64,000 nucleotides of DNA from the NCBI RefSeq assembly GCF_900099935.1, contig NZ_FNEK01000011.1, positions 1 through 64,000 on the forward strand. The letters are read 5' to 3'. The position numbers and the translations under genes were made by a program. Below are positions 2,439-47,083 of the stretch, in pieces. The stretch's first letter is position 1, and each line of letters begins with the position of its first letter. The notes beneath the pieces were generated by a model. It saw nothing but the letters and a program-made list of their open reading frames with translations. It was not told where the DNA came from and did no database searches. This stretch comes from Aliiruegeria lutimaris. Its GTDB lineage: Bacteria > Pseudomonadota > Alphaproteobacteria > Rhodobacterales > Rhodobacteraceae.

Positions 2439-2556
2439 GCGGGGAAACGGGCGGCAGCGGCATCCGGCCGGCCGGTTTTCCGGCGGGCGCGACGTGGCTT
2501 CCCTTCTGCAGTTCAGGCCAGTATACGACCGGCTTGAATCATCAGGAGCCGGACCG

Positions 2557-3348
2557 ATGCAGGGCAGCGCAAATCTCAACGTCATGATCAAGGCCGCCCG
2601 CATGGCAGGCCGTTCGCTGGTCAAGGATTTCCGCGAAGTGGAAAATCTCCAGGTTGGCACCAAGGGGCCGGGAGATTTCGTTACCAAGGCTGACCTGCGC
2701 GCCGAGGAGATCATCCACGCAGAGCTGACGGCCGCGCGCCCGAGCTATGGCTGGCTTGGCGAGGAAACCGGCGAAGTGGCTGGCAAGGACCCGACCCGCC
2801 GCTGGATCGTGGACCCGCTGGACGGAACCACCAATTTCCTGCACGGCTTGCCGCATTGGGCGGTGTCCATTGCGTTGGAGCACAAGGGCGAGATCGTGGC
2901 CGGCGTCGTGTTCGACGCGGCCAAGGACGAGATGTTCTATGCCGAGAAAGGCGCGGGCGCCTGGCTCAATAACGACCAGCGGATCCGCGTTTCCGGCCGG
3001 ACCCGCATGATCGAGTCGGTTTTCGCCACCGGTATCCCCTGGGGCAGCATGCGCACCCTGCCGGCCATGATGCAGGATCTTGCCCGCCTGATGCCACAAT
3101 GTGCTGGCGTCCGCCGCTGGGGATCTGCCGCGCTCGACCTCGCCTACGTCGCCGCCGGCCGATATGACGGCTACTGGGAGCGCGAAGCCAAAACGCATGA
3201 CATTGCAGCGGGTTTGGTCATCGTGCGCGAGGCCGGCGGTTTCGTCGAGCCGCTCTACGAGGGACGCGATATTTTCGAGGACCAGATGCTGATTGCGGGC
3301 AATGGCGGCGTGTTCACCAAGTTCGCTCAGACAATTCGAAGCCGCTGA
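2557..3348 (+). CDS. suhB: inositol monophosphatase family protein (SuhB-like)
   Basis: A 263-residue Mg-dependent phosphatase of the IMPase/FBPase superfamily. Metal-binding motifs are visible: GEETGE near residue 67, WIVDPLDGTTNF near residue 83, and the C-terminal KTHDIAAG motif holding the last metal aspartate. Start is the ATG at 2557 after AGGAG; longer in-frame starts overlap the LysR 3' end and lack a ribosome site. Members hydrolyse myo-inositol phosphate, and SuhB also acts in rRNA transcription complexes; which role applies here is not visible. It reads in the same direction as the LysR gene but 118 bases away. Confidence 0.9.
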   Translation: MQGSANLNVMIKAARMAGRSLVKDFREVENLQVGTKGPGDFVTKADLRAEEIIHAELTAARPSYGWLGEETGEVAGKDPTRRWIVDPLDGTTNFLHGLPHWAVSIALEHKGEIVAGVVFDAAKDEMFYAEKGAGAWLNNDQRIRVSGRTRMIESVFATGIPWGSMRTLPAMMQDLARLMPQCAGVRRWGSAALDLAYVAAGRYDGYWEREAKTHDIAAGLVIVREAGGFVEPLYEGRDIFEDQMLIAGNGGVFTKFAQTIRSR

Positions 3349-3389
3349 TCCGTCGATTTTGCGCCACATTTGCTCGACAATGTGGAGTA

Positions 3390-3599
3390 ATGAAACCGAA
3401 TGCTCTCCTCCGGCGGCTATTTGCCCGTTTCCAATCCGAAGACCGCGGAGCGGTCACGGTGGATTGGGTCGTACTGACTGCGGCTGTCGTCAGCATGGCG
3501 CTCGGTTCCATTCACTTGTGGCGTGCCAATGTCGTAATAGTCGCGACCGACATTGCGGATACGACCACGGATTACGAAATCAAGACATCTTTCGATTGA
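3390..3599 (+). CDS. small pilin-like single-pass membrane protein
   Basis: A 69-residue peptide with a basic N-terminus (residues 1-14), then the acidic turn SEDRGAVTVDWVVLTAAVV leading into one hydrophobic helix (about 20-40), then a polar tail. The charged-G-x-x-T-V-D/E pattern before a hydrophobic helix recalls Flp/TadE-type pilins, and such short proteins recur in Rhodobacterales. No prepilin peptidase, tad cluster or other pilus gene is nearby, so it is an orphan. Function unknown. The gene lies 41 bases after the inositol phosphatase and converges with the rhomboid gene. Confidence 0.7.
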   Translation: MKPNALLRRLFARFQSEDRGAVTVDWVVLTAAVVSMALGSIHLWRANVVIVATDIADTTTDYEIKTSFD

Positions 3600-3615
3600 T
3601 GCGCCAACCGGCGGA

Positions 3616-4374
3616 TCATTTGCGCCGATGCACAGGCGGGATATGGCCGCGTTTCCGTCGGACCCGTGGAATGCTGCTGCGATCGTAGCGGGCAACCGGG
3701 TGCGGTGGCGCCCCATGCGTCCTGTTCCAGAAAGCCGGCCCGCCGCGTTTTAACCAAACTGGCAATGCGAAAACAGCCCCGACCACGAAGCCGCCCGCAT
3801 GGGCCGAGTAGGCAACCCCGCCCGTATCGGGGTCGGAGCCGGCTGCGCCCAGCAGCTGCAAGCCGAACCACAGCAGCAGCATCGCCCAGGCCGGCACGGA
3901 GATGACCCGGATCAGGATGATGATGATCAGCAGTACGTCTACACGGGCGCGGGGAAACAGCAGCAGGTAGCCCCCCATGACGCCTGCAATCGCACCGGAA
4001 GCGCCAACGGTTGGCACCGTAGAGCCGGGGGAAAGCATGACGTGCACAAGGCCGGCCGCGACGCCGCTGGCCAGGTAGAAGAGCGCGAATCCGCCATGCC
4101 CCATTTCGTCTTCGAGGTTGTCGCCGAAGATCCACAGGAACAGCATGTTGCCCAGCAGGTGCAGAATCCCGCCATGCAGGAACATCGAGGTGAGATAGCT
4201 GCCCAGGCTCGGCCGCGCCGGAATCAGCGCATAGTGATCGTAGAAGATCATGAGATCCCGCGGGTAGTTCAGGAGATCCCAATAAGACAGGAAGATCAGC
4301 ACATTGGCCGCGATCAGCAAATAGGTGATGAAGGGCGTGCGCCCCGAGGGGTTATGATCGCGGATCGGAAACAT
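3616..4374 (-). CDS. rhomboid family intramembrane serine protease
   Basis: A 252-residue polytopic membrane protein with about six hydrophobic helices. The rhomboid catalytic dyad is present: Ser126 in VGASGAIAGV and His192 in SAHAGG. Asn76 in LHLLGNMLFLW is the usual oxyanion residue. The FLHGGILHLLGN and GASG motifs place it firmly in the family. Substrates are unknown. The final 40 residues are polar, basic and probably cytosolic. The gene ends 17 bases after the small pilin-like gene and is divergent from a TPR protein (94-base spacer). Confidence 0.93.
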   Translation of the reverse strand: MFPIRDHNPSGRTPFITYLLIAANVLIFLSYWDLLNYPRDLMIFYDHYALIPARPSLGSYLTSMFLHGGILHLLGNMLFLWIFGDNLEDEMGHGGFALFYLASGVAAGLVHVMLSPGSTVPTVGASGAIAGVMGGYLLLFPRARVDVLLIIIILIRVISVPAWAMLLLWFGLQLLGAAGSDPDTGGVAYSAHAGGFVVGAVFALPVWLKRGGPAFWNRTHGAPPHPVARYDRSSIPRVRRKRGHIPPVHRRK

Positions 4375-4468
4375 GGACGGAGGCTAGCGGGCCGTTCCGC
4401 CCGGTCAAGCAAAAGGCTCTGACGCAGCCGTGAATTGACCGAAGCGGTGAAACGCGCATCGTTGAGGT

Positions 4469-5035
4469 ATGAATCGTGCAACACTCACGGGGCTTTCGTC
4501 CCTCTGGATCGCTTTTGGAGCCACCGCCGGCCTCGCTTGCCCCGAGGTTTCTGAAACCGATCCTCTCCACAACGAGCTGATGGAACAGGTGCGCGTTGCG
4601 CCCGATGCCCGCTCCGCGCAGCTTCTGACCAACCAACTCTGGGAGATCTGGGCCAAGGCGCCGGATGCGCATTCCCAGGACCTGCTCGATGCCGGGATCG
4701 AACGGCGGTCTGTCTTTGATCTCGATGCCGCGATGGCGGCATTCGATGCGCTCGTTGGCTATTGCCCGACCTATGCCGAAGGCTACAACCAGCGGGCTTT
4801 CGTGCTTTTCATCCGGCAGGATTACGAGCCCGCGCTGAAGGACCTGGACCGCGCCCTTGCGCGCGCGCCCGACCATCTGGGCGCCTTGACCGGCCGGGCC
4901 ATGGCGCTGATGGCGCTCGGCAGGGATGTCGAGGCGTTGCAGGACCTGAAATCGGCCCTGTCGCTCAACCCGTGGTTGAAGGAGCGCGACCTTGTTCCGG
5001 TTCTCGAAGGCCGGATTTCCGACTCGGAACTTTGA
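4469..5035 (+). CDS. secreted tetratricopeptide-repeat protein
   Basis: A 188-residue protein with a likely Sec signal peptide (residues 1-23, cleavage after a GLA segment). The C-terminal half holds TPR-like helical pairs (DLDAAMAAFDALVGYCPTYAEGYNQRA, then PALKDLDRALARAPDHLGALTGRAMALMALG and EALQDLKSALSLNP, about residues 80-170). TPRs mediate protein contacts, so a periplasmic scaffold role is plausible, but no partner is indicated by the neighbours. It is followed 63 bases later by tRNA-Leu. Confidence 0.8.
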   Translation: MNRATLTGLSSLWIAFGATAGLACPEVSETDPLHNELMEQVRVAPDARSAQLLTNQLWEIWAKAPDAHSQDLLDAGIERRSVFDLDAAMAAFDALVGYCPTYAEGYNQRAFVLFIRQDYEPALKDLDRALARAPDHLGALTGRAMALMALGRDVEALQDLKSALSLNPWLKERDLVPVLEGRISDSEL

Positions 5036-5098
5036 GATCCGCCGAGAGGACGCTCCCCTCTTGCCGCCCGCGCGCGCAAGGCCTATTCCGGGCATGTT

Positions 5099-5183
5099 GC
5101 GGGCGTGGTGGAATGGTAGACACAAGCGACTTAAAATCGCTCGGGCGTGGCCCGTGCGGGTTCGACTCCCGCCGCCCGCACCA
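5099..5183 (+). tRNA. tRNA-Leu (anticodon UAA)
   Basis: An 85-base class II tRNA. The acceptor stem GCGGGCG (5099-5105) pairs with CGCCCGC (5173-5179), followed by A and an encoded CCA (5181-5183). The anticodon stem AGCGA/TCGCT encloses the loop CTTAAAA with anticodon TAA. A long variable arm (TCGGGCGTGGCCCG region) and the T loop GGTTCGACTCC are present. No attachment-site duplication or integrase is seen downstream. Confidence 0.96.
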
Positions 5184-5321
5184 CCTTCCGCCGCGAGCGA
5201 AACAATGGCCCCGCGCTATATCCACTGTTTCCAAATTCTCCCCTTGATACCCACCGGTGCGGACACTTACCTCTAAGCGAGATCGAAAAAACAAGCGCTT
5301 GGGGCGCTGAGAGGTATTTGC

Positions 5322-5690
5322 ATGCGCAACGCGGCGCTGACGCTTGGGTTGATCGGGGGGCTTATCGCCCTGGTGATCGGGTTCTTTGGTTTTGGCTATA
5401 CAGAGGTCATTCGGAATTACGAGGAGGTCGGCGAGGTCTTCGGCCGGCCGCAGAATGCCGAACTGATCCGCGTGGCGAGTTTCCTCGCCCCGCTGCTGGC
5501 CATTGCCGGGGGCGCGATGGCCAAGAGCCGGGCGCTCTGGGGCGGGCTGATGATGCTCGTTGCGGGCGGGTTGATGTATTACACCTTCGGCTTTGGCGTT
5601 TTCACCATGTTCCCGATCGGATTTTGCCTCACGGGTGGCCTGCTCGCCGTGGCCGCTGGCAAGCCGGACGAGCCCAAACAGCATTTCTGA
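5322..5690 (+). CDS. small four-helix membrane protein, function unknown
   Basis: A 122-residue hydrophobic protein with four probable membrane helices (about 5-27, 47-66, 70-90, 92-112). A conserved-looking loop between helices 1 and 2 contains charged EVIRNYEEVGEVFGRP. The ATG at 5322 follows a GAGAGG stretch. No family is recognised with confidence, and neighbours (tRNA-Leu upstream, protease 370 bases downstream) give no functional hint. Confidence 0.7.
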   Translation: MRNAALTLGLIGGLIALVIGFFGFGYTEVIRNYEEVGEVFGRPQNAELIRVASFLAPLLAIAGGAMAKSRALWGGLMMLVAGGLMYYTFGFGVFTMFPIGFCLTGGLLAVAAGKPDEPKQHF

Positions 5691-39709: not shown

Positions 39710-41500
39710 ATGGATCAGTTTGTACTTAACTGGATCTTTATCGGTGCGAGCTTCGCGCTCTACATCGGTATCGCGATCTGGGCCCGCGCGGGCTCTACTT
39801 CCGAATTCTATGCCGCCGGCCGGGGTGTTCATCCCGTCGTCAACGGCATGGCCACCGGCGCTGACTGGATGTCGGCCGCCTCCTTCATCTCGATGGCGGG
39901 TCTGATTGCCTTCACCGGCTACGACAACTCGACCTTCCTCATGGGCTGGACTGGCGGCTACGTGCTGCTGGCGCTGATGCTCGCGCCCTACCTGCGCAAG
40001 TTCGGCAAGTTCACCGTTTCGGAATTCATCGGCGACCGTTTCTACAGCCCGACTGCGCGCCTCGTGGCCGTGATCTGCCTGATCGTCGCCTCGATCACCT
40101 ACGTGATCGGCCAGATGACCGGCGTCGGCGTTGCCTTCGGCCGTTTCCTCGAGGTTGACAATACCACCGGCCTGCTGATCGGTGCCGCGGTCGTCTTCGC
40201 CTACGCGGTGTTCGGCGGCATGAAGGGCGTGACCTACACCCAGGTTGCCCAGTACGTGGTGCTCATCACCGCCTACACCATCCCGGCGATCTTCATCTCG
40301 CTGCAGCTGACCGGCAACCCGATCCCGGCGCTCGGCCTGTTTGGCGATCACGCCGCTTCCGGCGAGCCGCTGCTTGCCAAGCTGGACCAGATCGTCTCCG
40401 AGTTGGGCTTCAACGAGTATACCGCGCACCACGCCGACACGCTGAACATGGTTCTGTTCACCTTGTCGCTGATGATCGGTACCGCCGGCCTGCCGCACGT
40501 CATCATGCGTTTCTTTACCGTGCCGACCGTTGCCTCCGCGCGCTGGTCTGCCGGCTGGGCGCTGGTGTTCATCGCGCTGCTGTACCTCACGGCCCCGGCC
40601 GTTGGTGCGATGGCCCGCCTGAACATCTCCGAACTGATGTGGCCGAACGGCACCGATGGTGAGCCGGTCTCCATGGAGATGATGGAGAACCAGGAAGAAT
40701 ATGCTTGGATGGCCACCTGGCAGAAGACCGGCCTGCTCGGCTGGGAAGACAAGAACGGCGACGGCAAGATCGCCTACTTCAACCAGGGCAATGCCGACAA
40801 GGCTGCCGCCATGGAAGCCGCCGGTTGGGGTTCCGAGAACGAGCTGACCAACTTCAACCGCGACATCCTGGTTCTGGCCAACCCGGAAATCGCCAACCTG
40901 CCGGGCTGGGTTATCGCGCTCGTCGCCGCCGGTGGTCTCGCCGCCGCGCTCTCGACCGCTGCCGGCCTGCTTCTGGCGATCTCCTCGGCTGTCTCGCACG
41001 ACCTGCTCAAGGGTCAGCTGACCCCGAACATGTCGGAAGCCAACGAGCTGATGTCCGCTCGGGTCGCCATGGCCGCTGCCATCGTGGTCGCCACCTACCT
41101 GGGCCTCAACCCTCCGGGCTTTGCCGCCCAGACGGTTGCGCTCGCCTTCGGTCTGGCTGCTGCCTCGATCTTCCCGGCCCTGATGATGGGGATCTTCTCC
41201 AAGCGTGTGAACAACGTGGGTGCCGTCTCCGGTATGCTCGTCGGCCTGGTGGTCACGCTGGTCTACATCTTCCTGCACAAGGGCTGGTTCTTCATCCCGG
41301 GCACCAACAGCTTCGACGACAGCGACCCGCTGCTGCTGACGATCAAGTCGACCTCGTTCGGCGCGGTCGGTGCTGCCCTGAACTTCGCCACGGCGATCAT
41401 CATCTCCAAAGCGACCAAGGCGCCGCCGCAGGAGATCGTCGATCTGGTCGAAAGCGTCCGGGTGCCGCGTGGCGCCGGTGCTGCCGCCGCGGATCACTGA
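39710..41500 (+). CDS. sodium:solute symporter family protein (VC2705/ActP-like)
   Basis: A 596-residue SSS transporter with about 13 membrane helices. Typical segments: the N-terminal EFYAAGRGVHPVVNGMATGADWMSAASFISMAG, LPHVIMRFFTVPT, and SAAGLLLAISSAVSHDLLKG. A polar insert at about 305-385 (ENQEEYAWMATWQKTGLLGWEDKNGDGKIAYF) carries an EF-hand-like DKNGDGKI loop, a feature I recall for the DUF4212-associated subfamily. With acs just upstream, acetate or another short carboxylate is the likely cargo; this is inference. Confidence 0.93.
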   Translation: MDQFVLNWIFIGASFALYIGIAIWARAGSTSEFYAAGRGVHPVVNGMATGADWMSAASFISMAGLIAFTGYDNSTFLMGWTGGYVLLALMLAPYLRKFGKFTVSEFIGDRFYSPTARLVAVICLIVASITYVIGQMTGVGVAFGRFLEVDNTTGLLIGAAVVFAYAVFGGMKGVTYTQVAQYVVLITAYTIPAIFISLQLTGNPIPALGLFGDHAASGEPLLAKLDQIVSELGFNEYTAHHADTLNMVLFTLSLMIGTAGLPHVIMRFFTVPTVASARWSAGWALVFIALLYLTAPAVGAMARLNISELMWPNGTDGEPVSMEMMENQEEYAWMATWQKTGLLGWEDKNGDGKIAYFNQGNADKAAAMEAAGWGSENELTNFNRDILVLANPEIANLPGWVIALVAAGGLAAALSTAAGLLLAISSAVSHDLLKGQLTPNMSEANELMSARVAMAAAIVVATYLGLNPPGFAAQTVALAFGLAAASIFPALMMGIFSKRVNNVGAVSGMLVGLVVTLVYIFLHKGWFFIPGTNSFDDSDPLLLTIKSTSFGAVGAALNFATAIIISKATKAPPQEIVDLVESVRVPRGAGAAAADH

Positions 41501-41560
41501 TCCCGCAGGTCCGCAGGCAGGGTTACCCAATGGCCTTGCCTGCAACCTGAGACAACAACC

Positions 41561-41590
41561 GGCGCGTCCCTTTGCCCGAAGGGGCGCGCC
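41561..41590 (+). terminator. hairpin after the symporter gene
   Basis: A 12-base-pair stem GGCGCGTCCCTT / AAGGGGCGCGCC with one wobble and a 6-base loop, 60 bases after the symporter stop. No T run follows, so it may reduce rather than stop transcription into the DUF294 gene, which starts 36 bases later. Confidence 0.5.
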
Positions 41591-41625
41591 GCCTGCCTTT
41601 CAGGACCCCTTAAAACGGTGAGACG

Positions 41626-43467
41626 ATGACCGACGCCGCCCTCGACCGAGACACACGGATCCTCCGGTTCCTCGAAAACGTCCACCCCTATGACAGCCTC
41701 AAGCGCGAGACGCTGACCCGCATCGCCAGCGTGTTTCTCGAGCGCAAGCTTGCTGCTGGCGAGGTGATCTATTCCGCCGGCGCATTGCTCGAAGGCCTCT
41801 ACCTGATCGAGCACGGCACGGTTGAAATCACCGACCAGAGCGGAGCGCAGGTTTCCATCCTGCATGGCCGCAACTCGTTCGGCGAGCGTGGCCTCACCCG
41901 CGACGGGATGGCGATGACCAATGCCAGGGCGGTCGAGGAAACCCGCCTCCTGCTGCTGCCGGCCGACGAGTTCCACGACCTCATCCAGACGTCCCAGAGC
42001 TTCTCCCGTTTCTTCGACCGTGGCCGCAGCCCGGAAAAGGAACGCCGCAGGGATCTGAGCGCGCAACGCGTAGCCGACCTGATGGCGCGCAACCCGATCA
42101 CTGTTTCGCCGGATACCGGCATCCAGACCGCGGCCGGAATGATGCGCGACACGCGCGTCTCCTGCCTCGCCGTGACCGAGGGCGACAACCAGCTTGTTGG
42201 CATCGTGACCCTGCGTGACATGGCGACCAAGGCGGTGGCCGCGGGCCTGTCCGGGGACACGCCGGTCAGCCAGATCATGACCGCCAACCCCGCGAGCCTT
42301 GCCCCCTCCGCGCTTGGCTCGGACCTGTTGCACATCATGCTGGAACGCAAGGTTGGCCATGTGACGGTGACCGAGGGCAACCGCATCGTCGGCATCCTGA
42401 CCCAGACCGACCTGACCCGCTTCCAGGCAATCAGCTCCGCCTCGATGGTGCAGGAAATCGCCGAGGCCTACACGGCCCAGGAAATGGCCAAGGTCACCGC
42501 GCGCCTGCCAAGGCTGCTGATGCAGCTTGTCGGCGCTGGCAACCGGCACGAGGTCGTCACGCGGTTGATCACCGATATTGCGGATGCGGTCACCCGCCGC
42601 CTCCTGGCGCTTGCCGAGGCCGAGTTCGGCCCGCCGCCCGTGCCCTATCTCTGGCTTGCCTGCGGCAGCCAGGGGCGGCAGGAACAGACCGGTGTTTCGG
42701 ATCAGGACAATTGCATGATCCTCGACGACGCCGTGACCGAAGCTGACATGCCCTATTTCCGCAAGCTGGCGAAGTTCGTCTCCAACGGGCTCGATACTTG
42801 CGGCTATTTCTACTGCCCCGGCGACATGATGGCGACGGCCGAGCGCTGGTGCCAGCCGCTCGCGGTCTGGAAGCGCTATTTCCAGGGCTGGATCGACAAG
42901 CCGGATCCGGAAGCGCAGATGCTGGCGTCGGTAATGTTCGACCTTCGCCCGATCGGCGGCACGCACAGCCTGTTCGAGAACCTTCAGGAGCAAACGCTGG
43001 AGGCGGCCCGCAGGAACACGATCTTCGTTGGCCACATGATCGTGAATTCGCTCAAGCACACGCCGCCGCTAGGCCTGTTCCGCGGCTTTGCCACGGTACG
43101 TTCTGGCGAGCACAAGAACGAGTTGGACATGAAGATGAACGGCGTCGTGCCGGTTGTCGATCTCGGCCGCATCTACGCGCTTCAGGGCGGGATCACCGAG
43201 GTAAACACGCGCGCGCGGCTGGAAGCGGCCGAGGCGCTTGGCACGATCTCGCATTCGGGCGCACATGACCTGCTAGACGCCTATGACCTGATCGCCGAGA
43301 CCCGCCTGAAGCGGCAGGCCGACGAGATCAAGGCCGACCGCAAGCCCGACAATTTCATGCCGCCCTCGGATCTGAGCGATCTGGAACGCAGCCACCTGCG
43401 CGACGCTTTCGTGGTGGTCCGAACGATGCAATCGGCCATTGGCCAGGGCAAGGGCATGTTGAGTTGA
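41626..43467 (+). CDS. cNMP-binding / CBS / DUF294 nucleotidyltransferase-like regulator
   Basis: A 613-residue cytosolic protein. Residues 10-125 form a cyclic-nucleotide-binding-like barrel (AGEVIYSAGALLEGLYLIEHGTVEI). CBS motifs lie at about 149-205 and 214-270. DUF294 nucleotidyltransferase spans about 300-440, with GSQGRQEQTGVSDQDN at 347-362, as in GlnD-type enzymes. The DUF294 C-terminal domain follows. Such proteins could sense adenylate ligands through CBS and transfer a nucleotide to a partner, but no target is known to me. It is in line with the symporter upstream and the receiver and exonuclease downstream. Confidence 0.92.
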   Translation: MTDAALDRDTRILRFLENVHPYDSLKRETLTRIASVFLERKLAAGEVIYSAGALLEGLYLIEHGTVEITDQSGAQVSILHGRNSFGERGLTRDGMAMTNARAVEETRLLLLPADEFHDLIQTSQSFSRFFDRGRSPEKERRRDLSAQRVADLMARNPITVSPDTGIQTAAGMMRDTRVSCLAVTEGDNQLVGIVTLRDMATKAVAAGLSGDTPVSQIMTANPASLAPSALGSDLLHIMLERKVGHVTVTEGNRIVGILTQTDLTRFQAISSASMVQEIAEAYTAQEMAKVTARLPRLLMQLVGAGNRHEVVTRLITDIADAVTRRLLALAEAEFGPPPVPYLWLACGSQGRQEQTGVSDQDNCMILDDAVTEADMPYFRKLAKFVSNGLDTCGYFYCPGDMMATAERWCQPLAVWKRYFQGWIDKPDPEAQMLASVMFDLRPIGGTHSLFENLQEQTLEAARRNTIFVGHMIVNSLKHTPPLGLFRGFATVRSGEHKNELDMKMNGVVPVVDLGRIYALQGGITEVNTRARLEAAEALGTISHSGAHDLLDAYDLIAETRLKRQADEIKADRKPDNFMPPSDLSDLERSHLRDAFVVVRTMQSAIGQGKGMLS

Positions 43468-43516
43468 AACAGAAATTTTCCACGGCAGCACGACTGCCTG
43501 GAACAGGGGAGGGGCC

Positions 43517-44044
43517 ATGTTCCTCGAATTGATCGCCGCCGTATTCGCCGCTGTCGCAGCGGCCGGGGTCGTCTATCTGTTGAACCGCCTTCTGGGTGGT
43601 CGCCTGCCGGGCTGGCTGATGCCCGTCGCGGCCGGCGCGATGATGATCCTGTTTACCATCCGCATGGAATACACATGGTTCGAACGCACCTCCGCGGAGT
43701 TCCCGGAGGATGTGGTTGTCACGAAAGTCCATGAATCCACGGCTTTCTTTCGCCCTTGGACCTATGTCACGCCGCTGGTGAACCGTTTCGCCGCTGTCGA
43801 GACCAGCGCCATTCGCAGCAACGAGGCCGTGCCGCATCTGCGCATGTTCGACATGCTGCTCTTTGGCCGATGGCAGCCGCCGCAGGTCGTGCCGATGATC
43901 GTCGATTGCGACGCACAGCTCGGCGCGCCGCTGCTCGACACGGTCACCTTCGATGCCTCCGGCGCTGTCGAGAACGCCCAGTGGGCGCCAATCCCGGAGG
44001 ATGACCTGACGCTCGCTACTGTCTGCAAGGAGATCCGACCATGA
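43517..44044 (+). CDS. small membrane protein in the symporter/exonuclease cluster
   Basis: A 175-residue protein with two N-terminal membrane helices (about 3-25 and 32-50), then a soluble domain with HESTAFFRPWTYVTPLVNRF and VPMIVDCDAQLGAPLLD. No family I can name. It starts 49 bases after the DUF294 gene and overlaps the receiver gene by 4 bases (ATGA), so it belongs to the same operon and may face the periplasm or the membrane sensor. Confidence 0.78.
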   Translation: MFLELIAAVFAAVAAAGVVYLLNRLLGGRLPGWLMPVAAGAMMILFTIRMEYTWFERTSAEFPEDVVVTKVHESTAFFRPWTYVTPLVNRFAAVETSAIRSNEAVPHLRMFDMLLFGRWQPPQVVPMIVDCDAQLGAPLLDTVTFDASGAVENAQWAPIPEDDLTLATVCKEIRP

Positions 44045-44445
44045 CCGGCACAGATCACCCGGCCAGAATCCTGATCGTCGAGGACGAGGACAATATCGCT
44101 CTCGCGCTGAGCCATGTGCTCGGGCGGGAGGGCTGGACGGTCGAGCGTGTCGCCGATGGCGATGCCGGGCTGGCGGCCGTGCGGGACCTTCACCCGGATC
44201 TTGTCTTGCTTGACGTGATGCTACCGGGCATGACGGGCTACGAGGTCTGTCAGGCCGTGAGGCTTGAGCCGGAGCTGGCGGAGGTGAAGATCCTGATGAT
44301 GACGGCGCGCGGGAACGCGATGGAGCGGCGCAAGGGACTTGCGCTCGGCGCGGACGGTTTCATTGCCAAGCCCTTCGACCTTTCGGACCTGCTGGAACAG
44401 GCGCGCGCGCTTCTGTCCGGCCCTGCGGAGCCAAGCAATGCATGA
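44041..44445 (+). CDS. single-domain response regulator (CheY-like receiver)
   Basis: A 134-residue receiver domain without an output domain. Acidic pocket Glu14-Asp15-Asp17 region (LIVEDEDN), phospho-acceptor Asp58 in LVLLDVMLPGMTG, Thr88 in MMTAR and Lys110 in GFIAKPF are all intact. It overlaps the downstream sensor-exonuclease gene (ATG at 44438 lies before its stop), so the two are translationally coupled. The natural kinase partner would be that sensor, but its kinase core looks inactive, so the phosphate source is unclear. Confidence 0.92.
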   Translation: MTGTDHPARILIVEDEDNIALALSHVLGREGWTVERVADGDAGLAAVRDLHPDLVLLDVMLPGMTGYEVCQAVRLEPELAEVKILMMTARGNAMERRKGLALGADGFIAKPFDLSDLLEQARALLSGPAEPSNA

Positions 44446-46543
44446 GTGGCTGGCGCGCAAGCTGAGCCTGCGACTGCGGGTCTTCCTGTTCTTCGCACTG
44501 GTTGCATTCGGCGGGATAGCCGCGGTCTTCGCGGGCCTGTGGCTGGGCTACCGGCGCGTGCCGGAATCCGGGCTCGAAGGCGGTTTCGTCTTTGCCGGCC
44601 TCGTGTCCAGTTTCGGTGTTCTGGCAATGGTGGTCTGGGTCTGGTTCCTGTTCGACGAGAATGTCGCCAAGGCGATCCAGAAACTGGCCGGCGGGATGCG
44701 GGCCCGCGCCCATGCCGACATCGCAGAGGAGCTCGATCACCAACCGGCGCGGTACCTTGGCGACCTCGCCCCGGCAGCACAGGCGATCACCGGCTCGCTC
44801 TCTGAGACCAAGAACGCCCTCGCCGAAGCCGTGGAACGGGAAACGACCCGGCTGGCGGTCGAGAATGCCCGGCTGCAGGCCCTGTTGGCCGACGTGCCCG
44901 CCGGCGTGCTGCTGTGTACCTGCGAGCACCAGATCGTCTTCTATAACGGGCAGGCGCAGGAGATCCTGTCGGGAGAAATCTCCGCCGGCCTCCACAGGTC
45001 GCTGCTCGATTATCTGCGCGAGGGCCCGCTCCAGAATGCTTACCGGCGCCTACTGACCTCCGAAGATGCCGATGCGTCTAGCGATATCCTCTGCGCCTCC
45101 GTCCAGTCCGGCGAGGTGCTGGCCGGACGGATGCGCCTCGTGAACCTGCCGCAGCGCAGTGCGGACGAGCCGGGCTACGTGCTGACGCTGCGCGATGTCA
45201 CCTCCGATTTGGCGCTGCATGCCGGGCGCGAGGAGCTGCTGGAAGAAGTCTTCGAACGGGTTCGCCGCCCCGCCGCGAACCTACAGACGGTGCTGGATTC
45301 CGGCTCCATGGACAATGGCAACAGCCGTGCGGCCTTGCTGGGAGAGGTTGGGGCGCTGACCCATGCCATCACCGATCTGGGCGCGCGCTACGATGCGGCG
45401 CGTGGCGGCTGGTGGCCGATGGAAGACATTCGTGCCAGCGAGTTGGTGGATTCCGTCGTGGCACTGCTGGAGCGCGAGGGGATCCACCTGACCGCCGAGG
45501 CGGAACGCCTGATGCTGCGTTGCGATGCGTTTCAACTCGTCGCGCTGCTGACGCATCTTTGCGAGCGGCTGTCGACCGTGATCGGCGCCACGGCGCTCTC
45601 GCTGCGCATCGCTGAGGAGGAAGATGGCGGTGCGCTCGTCACCATCGGCTGGTTCGGGGACGTGCTGCAGGTGGGCCTTCTGGACGGGTGGTTGGACCTT
45701 CCGCTCGAGGTGGGCATGGCGAACGTGACCGGACGCACGGTGCTGTCGACCCATGCAACCGATGCCTGGCCCGAATCCGGCGCGGTGGGCAGGGCGCTGT
45801 TGCGCCTGCCGTTGCGGAAGGCCTGTCCCATCGGGGCGCCGCATGTCGGCGCACGCCGGTCTGCCGTCTATGATTTCGACCTAATGGATCGCGAGCCGAG
45901 CGGTGAACTGGCCGAGACCCCGCTGCGCGAGCTGACTTGCGTGGTGTTCGATACCGAAACGACCGGCCTGCTGCCGTCCTCCGGAGACGAGATCGTCCAG
46001 ATCGCGGCTTTGCGGCTGGTCGGCGGCAAGCGGATTCCGGGCGAAAAGTTCGAGAGCCTCGTGAACCCGGAACGCCCGATCCCGGCCTCGGCGACCGAGG
46101 TGCATCACGTGACAAACGAGATGGTAGCGAAGGCTCCGGTCATCGCCGATGTCGGTCGGCGTTTCCACGCCTTCGCCCATGACGCGGTACTGGTGGCGCA
46201 TAACGCGCCTTTCGACCTGGAATTCCTGCGTCGGCACGAGGCCGATATCGGCAAGCGCTTCGATCACCCGGTGCTCGATACCGTGCTGCTCTCGGCGGTG
46301 GTGTTTGGCCAGTCCGAGACACACACGCTCGACGCGCTGACCGAACGGCTCGGTATCGTCATCCCGCCCGAAGCGCGCCACACCGCCATGGGCGACACGA
46401 TCGCCACAGCCGCGGCGCTCGAGATGATGATCCCGATGCTGGAAGGGCAGGGCTATCGCACCTTCGGCGAAGTCATCACGGCGGTGCGTCGCCACAGCCG
46501 CTTGCTAAAGGATGCCAACAGCCCGGAGAAAGTGCCCGGATGA
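44438..46543 (+). CDS. membrane PAS/degenerate histidine-kinase fused to DnaQ-type 3'-5' exonuclease
   Basis: A 701-residue fusion. Two membrane helices (13-38 and 48-72) with hardly any periplasmic loop precede a linker/coil (about 75-150), a PAS-like domain (about 150-258; VPAGVLLCTCEHQIVFYNGQ), and a region shaped like a histidine-kinase DHp and ATPase (259-450). The usual H-E-L-R-T-P motif reads FERVRRPAAN, without the phospho-accepting His. N and G boxes are not recognisable. Residues 499-690 are a DEDDh exonuclease with all five residues: Asp505, Glu507 (FDTETTG), Asp593 (HNAPFD), His648 and Asp653 (HTAMGD). Nucleic acid substrate unknown. Coupled to the receiver gene upstream. Confidence 0.88.
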   Translation: MHEWLARKLSLRLRVFLFFALVAFGGIAAVFAGLWLGYRRVPESGLEGGFVFAGLVSSFGVLAMVVWVWFLFDENVAKAIQKLAGGMRARAHADIAEELDHQPARYLGDLAPAAQAITGSLSETKNALAEAVERETTRLAVENARLQALLADVPAGVLLCTCEHQIVFYNGQAQEILSGEISAGLHRSLLDYLREGPLQNAYRRLLTSEDADASSDILCASVQSGEVLAGRMRLVNLPQRSADEPGYVLTLRDVTSDLALHAGREELLEEVFERVRRPAANLQTVLDSGSMDNGNSRAALLGEVGALTHAITDLGARYDAARGGWWPMEDIRASELVDSVVALLEREGIHLTAEAERLMLRCDAFQLVALLTHLCERLSTVIGATALSLRIAEEEDGGALVTIGWFGDVLQVGLLDGWLDLPLEVGMANVTGRTVLSTHATDAWPESGAVGRALLRLPLRKACPIGAPHVGARRSAVYDFDLMDREPSGELAETPLRELTCVVFDTETTGLLPSSGDEIVQIAALRLVGGKRIPGEKFESLVNPERPIPASATEVHHVTNEMVAKAPVIADVGRRFHAFAHDAVLVAHNAPFDLEFLRRHEADIGKRFDHPVLDTVLLSAVVFGQSETHTLDALTERLGIVIPPEARHTAMGDTIATAAALEMMIPMLEGQGYRTFGEVITAVRRHSRLLKDANSPEKVPG

Positions 46544-46549
46544 TCCGCC

Positions 46550-47083
46550 TCAGATGCGCATCAACGTGCCGAAGATCCTGTCGCGATGCTCTTCGAGATA
46601 TATGCGCAGCCAGGGCGTGAACCGCTCGGGCCGGCGCGCCACCTCGGCGGTCAGGTCATAGAAGCCGACCCATTCGACCTGTGCCACCTCGGCCGGGTTG
46701 GGCGTGACCTTCATCTTGGTCTGGGCGGTGGCCATGAAGATATCGACCACCTCGTGCTCGATCATTCCGTTGCCGACATCCGCCCGGTATTCGACCCGGT
46801 CGCGATGTGCGGGCCAGAGCCCGACAATTCCAAGCTCCTCGCGCAGCCGGCGCACCGCACAATCCGCCGCCGGTTCGTTCCAGCGTGGGTGGGTGCAACA
46901 GGTGTTCGCCCACAGGCCGCCCGAATGATACTTGTGATGGGCGCGGCGCTGCAGCAGCACGTTCTGGCCATCCATCACGAACACCGATACCGCCTTGTGG
47001 CGCAGCCCCTTGCGGTGCACCTCAAGCTTTTCGACCGGTTGCAGGGTTCCATCGACCCATGCGGGAATCAATTCGTCGGTCAT
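46550..47083 (-). CDS. idi: isopentenyl-diphosphate delta-isomerase, type 1
   Basis: A 177-residue Nudix-fold enzyme interconverting IPP and DMAPP. Hallmarks: RRAHHKYHSGGLWANTCCTHP with the active-site Cys and metal His residues, the Nudix-like AVRRLREELGI, and EVVDIFMA. Complete length. It converges with the exonuclease gene (6 bases apart), so it is outside that operon. In photosynthetic relatives idi lies near carotenoid/bacteriochlorophyll genes; none are seen here. Confidence 0.94.
   Translation of the reverse strand: MTDELIPAWVDGTLQPVEKLEVHRKGLRHKAVSVFVMDGQNVLLQRRAHHKYHSGGLWANTCCTHPRWNEPAADCAVRRLREELGIVGLWPAHRDRVEYRADVGNGMIEHEVVDIFMATAQTKMKVTPNPAEVAQVEWVGFYDLTAEVARRPERFTPWLRIYLEEHRDRIFGTLMRI

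Follow-up and report, generated by a model that had tools for sequence, protein, structure and literature searches.

What does a protein do when it is shaped like a sensor histidine kinase, lacks the phosphorylatable histidine and ends in a nuclease? The question is raised by a frame of 701 codons in the 64,000 nucleotides of Aliiruegeria lutimaris DNA analysed here (the window: contig NZ_FNEK01000011.1, positions 1 to 64,000). An earlier note, made from the sequence letters, had read it as a membrane sensor whose output may be nuclease activity, which a lone receiver encoded just upstream could toggle. The frame is the last of five genes in a row, all on the + strand (39710-46543):

39710-41500, + strand: VC_2705-family sodium/solute symporter (NCBIfam TIGR03648, E 6.5e-244; Pfam SSF, E 7e-50)
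41626-43467, + strand: 613-aa protein with a cNMP-binding domain, two CBS domains, a DUF294 nucleotidyltransferase and DUF294_C (Pfam)
43517-44044, + strand: conserved membrane protein of 175 aa with two hydrophobic segments (hydropathy)
44041-44445, + strand: single-domain receiver of 134 aa (Pfam Response_reg, E 4.9e-27), with phospho-Asp58 at 44212-44214 and, as other key residues, Lys110 and Thr88
44438-46543, + strand: membrane PAS / pseudo-histidine-kinase / DEDDh exonuclease fusion of 701 aa

The symporter gene is the first of a conserved cluster and keeps this position in nearly all family loci. The DUF294 gene is a conserved neighbour as well, and its product has a readable nucleotidyltransferase motif, GSxGRxE..DxD (GSQGRQEQTGVSDQDN). 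The 175-aa membrane protein gave no Pfam family above cut-off; almost every family locus, those with the short form of the fusion described below included, has its gene between the DUF294 gene and that of the receiver or exonuclease. The membrane protein, receiver and fusion genes overlap by a few bases each, the receiver stop (44445) overlapping the fusion start (44438); the earlier note had read the receiver and the fusion as translationally coupled. A convergent NUDIX hydrolase gene (46550-47083, - strand) adjoins the fusion in some same-genus genomes only. Searches of the fusion and the receiver with Pfam, NCBIfam and PADLOC put a name to the exonuclease, to a weak PAS and to the receiver, and to nothing else. 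A role in defence was set aside: the PADLOC matches were generic ones to DEDDh and receiver proteins, and the neighbouring genes are metabolic.

Within the fusion, the following parts were recognized (all on the + strand):

44468-44716, + strand: two transmembrane helices, residues 11-40 and 47-93 (AF2; hydropathy peaks at residues 24 and 59), the second extending into the cytoplasm
44891-45196, + strand: PAS domain, residues 152-253 (weak Pfam PAS and AF2 topology)
45200-45412, + strand: DHp-like helical hairpin, residues 255-325 (AF2, Foldseek, VIA-align and sequence columns), with Glu273 in place of the phospho-His at 45254-45256 and the H-box Arg276 at 45263-45265
45422-45829, + strand: CA/HATPase-like domain, residues 329-464, without N box, G1 Asp and G2
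45923-46447, + strand: DEDDh (RNase_T/DnaQ) exonuclease domain (Pfam RNase_T, E 1.5e-33), with catalytic residues Asp505, Glu507, Asp593, His648 and Asp653

The frame has no stop and its N-terminus fits that of its relatives, which align from residue 1-8 onward. An AF2 model of the full-length protein (pLDDT 88.8, pTM 0.80) placed the parts in the order TM1, TM2, coiled coil, PAS, DHp, CA and exonuclease. The Pfam PAS match, over residues 144-256, was below cut-off in the window protein; PAS_4 matched 38 of 67 relatives. The single protein, the pair of membrane helices and the PAS-like domain announced by the earlier note are thus all recovered, the helices by agreement of AF2 and hydropathy and the PAS by the AF2 stretch.

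The domain order was then sought in other genomes. All nine genomes that were examined from the genus have it, the window's own being one of them (the other eight match at 73-86% identity), and in our first sample five further genera carry it at full length (46-56% identity); since the frame is also open in the eight same-genus genomes, a false joining of two genes was rejected as an explanation. Beyond these, the fusion is found in the Rhodobacteraceae, other Proteobacteria, Desulfuromonadales and single Acidobacteriota and Nitrospirota MAGs. Many relatives (e.g. in Ruegeria, Thalassovita and Sagittula) have instead a short form, TM-PAS-exonuclease, without pseudo-kinase or receiver. One clade (L014, L057-L061 and L063) has a shortened DHp and has lost the receiver, but keeps the CA-like domain. 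The cluster is also carried by the genome of Rhodobacter capsulatus DSM 1710 (L108).

The kinase-like region is a histidine kinase in fold. An AF2 model built on a 67-row alignment (pLDDT 88) has a pair of long helices and then an alpha/beta domain. Searched against the PDB with Foldseek, residues 255-464 gave 234 matches at E<=0.001, with histidine kinase DHp-CA cores throughout the matches listed; the best was 4q20, the Caulobacter pseudo-kinase DivL (E 8e-10). With VIA-align, the CA part aligned with PrrB (Z 15.1, 130 residues, 2.7 A), and DHp plus CA with DivL (Z 13.8) with a large rmsd, which we take to reflect a different DHp-CA angle. A profile of the region also matched a genuine kinase by sequence (E 2.7e-14), with Asp/Glu falling on the phospho-His of VAHDLRTPLT: in this register F-E-R-V-R-R-P-A-A of the window protein aligns with A-H-D-L-R-T-P-L-T, so that the His position is Glu273.

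The kinase boxes are lost. Among 144 fusion ORFs, a set that includes close relatives and therefore counts sequences rather than independent events, the phospho-His column holds Asp in 60, Glu in 58 and His in none; the N-box Asn is present in three (Arg377 in the window protein), and the G1 Asp in none, 132 having Trp there (Trp405 in the window protein). Pfam HisKA and HATPase_c were matched by 0 of 67 long-form relatives at E<=0.01. No active kinase was found within any fusion lineage, since no exonuclease-bearing relative has His at the acceptor site. Judged by its sequence, the kinase part is dead, has long been so, and cannot phosphorylate. It hardly ever occurs on its own: 144 of 147 pseudo-kinase ORFs carry the exonuclease, and the other three are one genuine kinase and two cut or frameshifted loci.

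The exonuclease, by contrast with the lost kinase boxes, is intact. It scored 117 bits against Pfam RNase_T (cut-off 24), and residues 505, 507, 593, 648 and 653 are shared by 94-95 of the 95 rows in the family alignment and by 53-54 of the 54 in a wider one. The closest solved relatives of the domain are the PolC/DnaQ-type DEDDh exonucleases (PDB 2p1j and 1j53), with which it shares the catalytic set; the nearest is the PolC-type 2p1j (E 5e-24). Unlike them, the fusion is membrane-tethered, has PAS and pseudo-kinase in front and lies outside any polymerase context. The exonuclease is also the part retained when other parts of the fusion are lost.

The receiver is equally well preserved. Among 104 aligned receivers (including a paralogue from contig C89 of the window's genome), the phospho-Asp58 and Lys110 are present in all and Thr/Ser88 in 102. 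Its presence follows that of the hairpin: in a Rhodobacteraceae sample of 95 fusion rows, 57 had both DHp and receiver, 35 had neither (26 short forms and nine long forms with the DHp cut down), three had the DHp only and none had the receiver only. At one of the three DHp-only loci (L076), a receiver-like ORF without the phospho-Asp (about 5310-5650, + strand) lies upstream of the fusion; it is possibly a pseudo-receiver paired with the pseudo-kinase. The tree calls for at least nine changes of the receiver label and eight of the DHp label. Well-supported branches carry three to four independent concordant changes and no discordant one; because there are so few, a phylogeny-aware sign test was not significant (p 0.125-0.25).

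The H box gives a second measure of this tie. Of the 101 loci with a receiver, 100 keep Arg276; of the 29 that have none next to the fusion, 12 do (the Fisher test on these counts ignores relatedness, and for three of the 29, L137, L150 and L151, receiver absence is uncertain because they lie at contig ends). Where the receiver is missing, Gln stands at this position in most Desulfuromonadales and the motif is lost in one Rhodobacteraceae clade. In the alignment, loci with the receiver show clear constraint on the H-box region, which decays in those that lack it. As gene content and these columns indicate, the receiver belongs to the pseudo-kinase and goes together with its DHp part.

A few regulators, DivL among them, are already known to be dead histidine kinases that read a receiver. 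DivL needs no kinase activity for its work, which is to read a phosphorylated receiver, DivK~P, whose binding is disrupted by the R553A mutation (PMC4211667). The fusion resembles DivL in having PAS followed by a histidine kinase core, a replaced phospho-His, an intact single-domain receiver as partner and equivalents of the H-box Arg and Pro (R276/P278 here, R553/P555 in DivL), Arg276 being Glu273+3 just as Arg553 is Tyr550+3. It differs in that the His has become Glu/Asp rather than Tyr; in that DivL keeps its N, G1, F and G2 boxes, with weak ATP binding (PMC4211667), whereas those of the fusion are gone; and in that DivL ends with its CA domain and acts on CckA, whereas the fusion carries a nuclease. 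With the other kinase boxes lost, the fusion may work like DivL and yet is not a DivL. On the precedent of DivL, the receiver would dock on the fusion's hairpin around residues 273-310, the step on which our proposal centres.

The phosphate for the receiver may come from a separate kinase. Outside the Rhodobacteraceae, about 20 of some 35 long-form loci encode a large genuine histidine kinase right next to the receiver and the fusion (L118-L120, L124, L125, L129, L133, L136, L143, L148, L149, L153, L155, L156, L159, L163 and L166-L168); in the window's own family, a kinase-receiver-fusion row is found at L077 of genome G046. The kinase gene is upstream of the pair in betaproteobacteria and some gammaproteobacteria, and downstream in Rhodospirillales, Halomonas and others. 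At L153 a 1062-aa ORF that could pass for a kinase-receiver fusion was discarded as an overlapping frame, the kinase there being 2497-5253. The adjoining kinases that were checked have HisKA and HATPase domains behind 10-12 hydrophobic segments, as do SLC5 kinases of the CrbS/MxtR and CbrA type; unlike those, they neighbour a single-domain receiver and a nuclease. From this anatomy and a general resemblance, we take them to be symporter-type kinases; the name is a lead, because Pfam SSF and STAC gave no match in the membrane part up to E 1.

The window's genome has a full-length homologue of this kinase on another contig (C89:57429-60095; 42%, E 7.6e-207). The receiver beside it is the best paralogue of the window receiver among 31 others in the genome (39%, E 4.8e-25), which makes this kinase the first candidate for phosphorylation in trans. 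Its mere presence is no pointer to the cluster: as a marker the symporter-type kinase was rejected for Rhodobacteraceae, being near-universal there (261 of 296 genomes). The signal probably enters through a separate symporter-type kinase, like those encoded beside the pair in other lineages.

What the nuclease might act on is suggested by Pseudomonas putida, where PP_0353 and PP_0354, an exonuclease and a CBS protein, are targets of the symporter-type MxtR/ErdR system (PMC9927547; PMC8402216). Mutants in PP_0353 and actP-I grow poorly on pyruvate, and mRNA decay was the role guessed for PP_0353 by its authors (PMC9927547). Our locus likewise has an RNase_T exonuclease adjoining a CBS-DUF294 protein, clusters with an SSF symporter as the other does with actP-type symporters, and has a link to a symporter-type kinase; this likeness is taken from the text of PMC9927547 rather than from sequence. 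The difference is that PP_0353/PP_0354, part of the MxtR/ErdR (CrbS/CrbR) regulon, are controlled transcriptionally via ErdR, with no pseudo-kinase or receiver reported, whereas the link here would be a protein contact. We think an RNA-acting nuclease linked to organic-acid use the likeliest role.

The reading that we prefer, with a probability of roughly 0.6, is a phospho-signal relay with a membrane-tethered 3'-5' exonuclease as output, passing from sensor kinase to phosphorylated receiver, pseudo-kinase reader and nuclease. A separate sensor kinase with symporter-like input (here probably the C89 one) would phosphorylate the receiver on Asp58; the receiver would dock on the DHp-like hairpin, the dead kinase merely reading its state as DivL reads DivK~P; and docking would alter the activity of the C-terminal exonuclease, in combination with whatever the PAS senses. 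The target, probably RNA or else a different nucleic acid or a nucleotidyl substrate, would be tied to the import of acetate, pyruvate or a similar acid by way of the symporter and the DUF294 nucleotidyltransferase encoded alongside. Sequence and structure prediction show the domain order, the histidine kinase fold, the lost kinase boxes, the intact nuclease and receiver residues, the co-occurrence of the receiver with the DHp and the H-box Arg, and a genuine symporter-like kinase next to the pair elsewhere; that the receiver binds, which way control runs, which kinase serves it here, the substrate and the physiology are what we infer in this scheme. Among the observations that count against it, the kinase-like part is absent from many close relatives, and Arg276 is present without an adjacent receiver in the long forms L141, L144, L145, L157 and L173. 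As to the earlier note, its pseudo-kinase fold without boxes, found by the structure prediction that it had proposed, its missing phospho-His, its exonuclease with five catalytic residues and its lone receiver with an intact Asp58 were all confirmed, the fusion being one gene, and the tracking of DHp by receiver was added; none of the three findings that it had named as speaking against it (a fold without kinase similarity, a canonical His and ATP-binding boxes on alignment, two separate genes in close relatives) was made. Its membrane part as signal input and its nuclease output toggled by the receiver are, like our scheme, proposals.

The most interesting rival to an RNA-nuclease role, we think, though an unlikely one, is that the two enzymes of the cluster are writer and eraser of one modification: the DUF294 protein would attach a nucleotide to a protein or a tail, as has been proposed for GlnD-like enzymes, and the DEDDh enzyme, regulated by receiver and pseudo-kinase, would remove it, so that the output would be reversible nucleotidylation, perhaps of the symporter, instead of RNA or DNA decay. 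The DUF294-exonuclease pairing is indeed the steadiest feature of the neighbourhood, with or without the pseudo-kinase and down to stand-alone exonucleases, and the nucleotidyltransferase motif is readable. Against this, the exonuclease domain is closest to the proofreading domains of PolC/DnaQ, and we know of no DEDDh enzyme that removes nucleotides from protein. The literature cuts both ways: regulation of proteins by DUF294 nucleotidylation is predicted in a passage of PMC5715377 that cites Aravind and Koonin 1999, and the phenotype of the P. putida exonuclease mutant is metabolic, but the DUF294-type mutant has none (PMC9927547). In two Syntrophomonadaceae loci (L178 and L179), a stand-alone exonuclease of about 280 aa directly follows the DUF294 gene, which suggests that this pair is older than the pseudo-kinase fusion.

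It is also doubtful that the pseudo-kinase is a mere dimerisation or membrane-tether relic, the receiver having another target and staying in the operon by descent. Drift is frequent in pseudo-enzymes, the part is dispensable in many relatives, and the CA domain persists where the DHp is cut down (the L014, L057-L061 and L063 clade); yet the H box is constrained with the receiver and decays without it, the change from His to an acidic residue is consistent across phyla, and the receiver keeps all its phosphorylation residues. A reversed flow, in which the membrane PAS/pseudo-kinase would respond to a ligand by sequestering or releasing the receiver, with the nuclease as a constitutive passenger, seems distinctly improbable: the domain order is that of a sensor kinase, but the kinase part cannot phosphorylate, and the exonuclease, whose catalytic set is invariant and which outlasts the loss of other parts, has the look of the functional end.

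In its wider form, the relay reading makes the row a post-translational switch, from kinase through stand-alone receiver and dead-kinase reader to membrane exonuclease, that would operate in several phyla and set RNA or nucleotidyl turnover to organic-acid supply; we consider this an even bet. The histidine kinase fold, the exonuclease family and the receiver-reader principle are known; a search of the open-access literature (subscription papers being outside its scope) found no paper on a nuclease fused to a dead kinase that reads a receiver, on how widely this fusion occurs or on its tie to a receiver and a symporter-type kinase. There is a realistic chance that this is more than a variant of a known principle. 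It hints at bacteria that put a signalling relay in direct charge of a nuclease, which would be out of the ordinary for such relays. Since the dead kinase is joined to the nuclease in several phyla, and nearly never occurs without it, the fusion provides a natural, testable case of a phospho-relay controlling an enzyme of nucleic-acid turnover without transcription, and a mechanistic lead for the unexplained role of PP_0353-type exonucleases and DUF294 proteins in acetate and pyruvate use.

A last observation concerns the C89 row (L209:6394-11505, - strand), which consists of the receiver, a 123-aa protein and the symporter-type kinase. It adjoins a short-chain fatty acyl-CoA regulator (ScfRs/HTH_3) and is possibly an acetate/propionate signalling locus.
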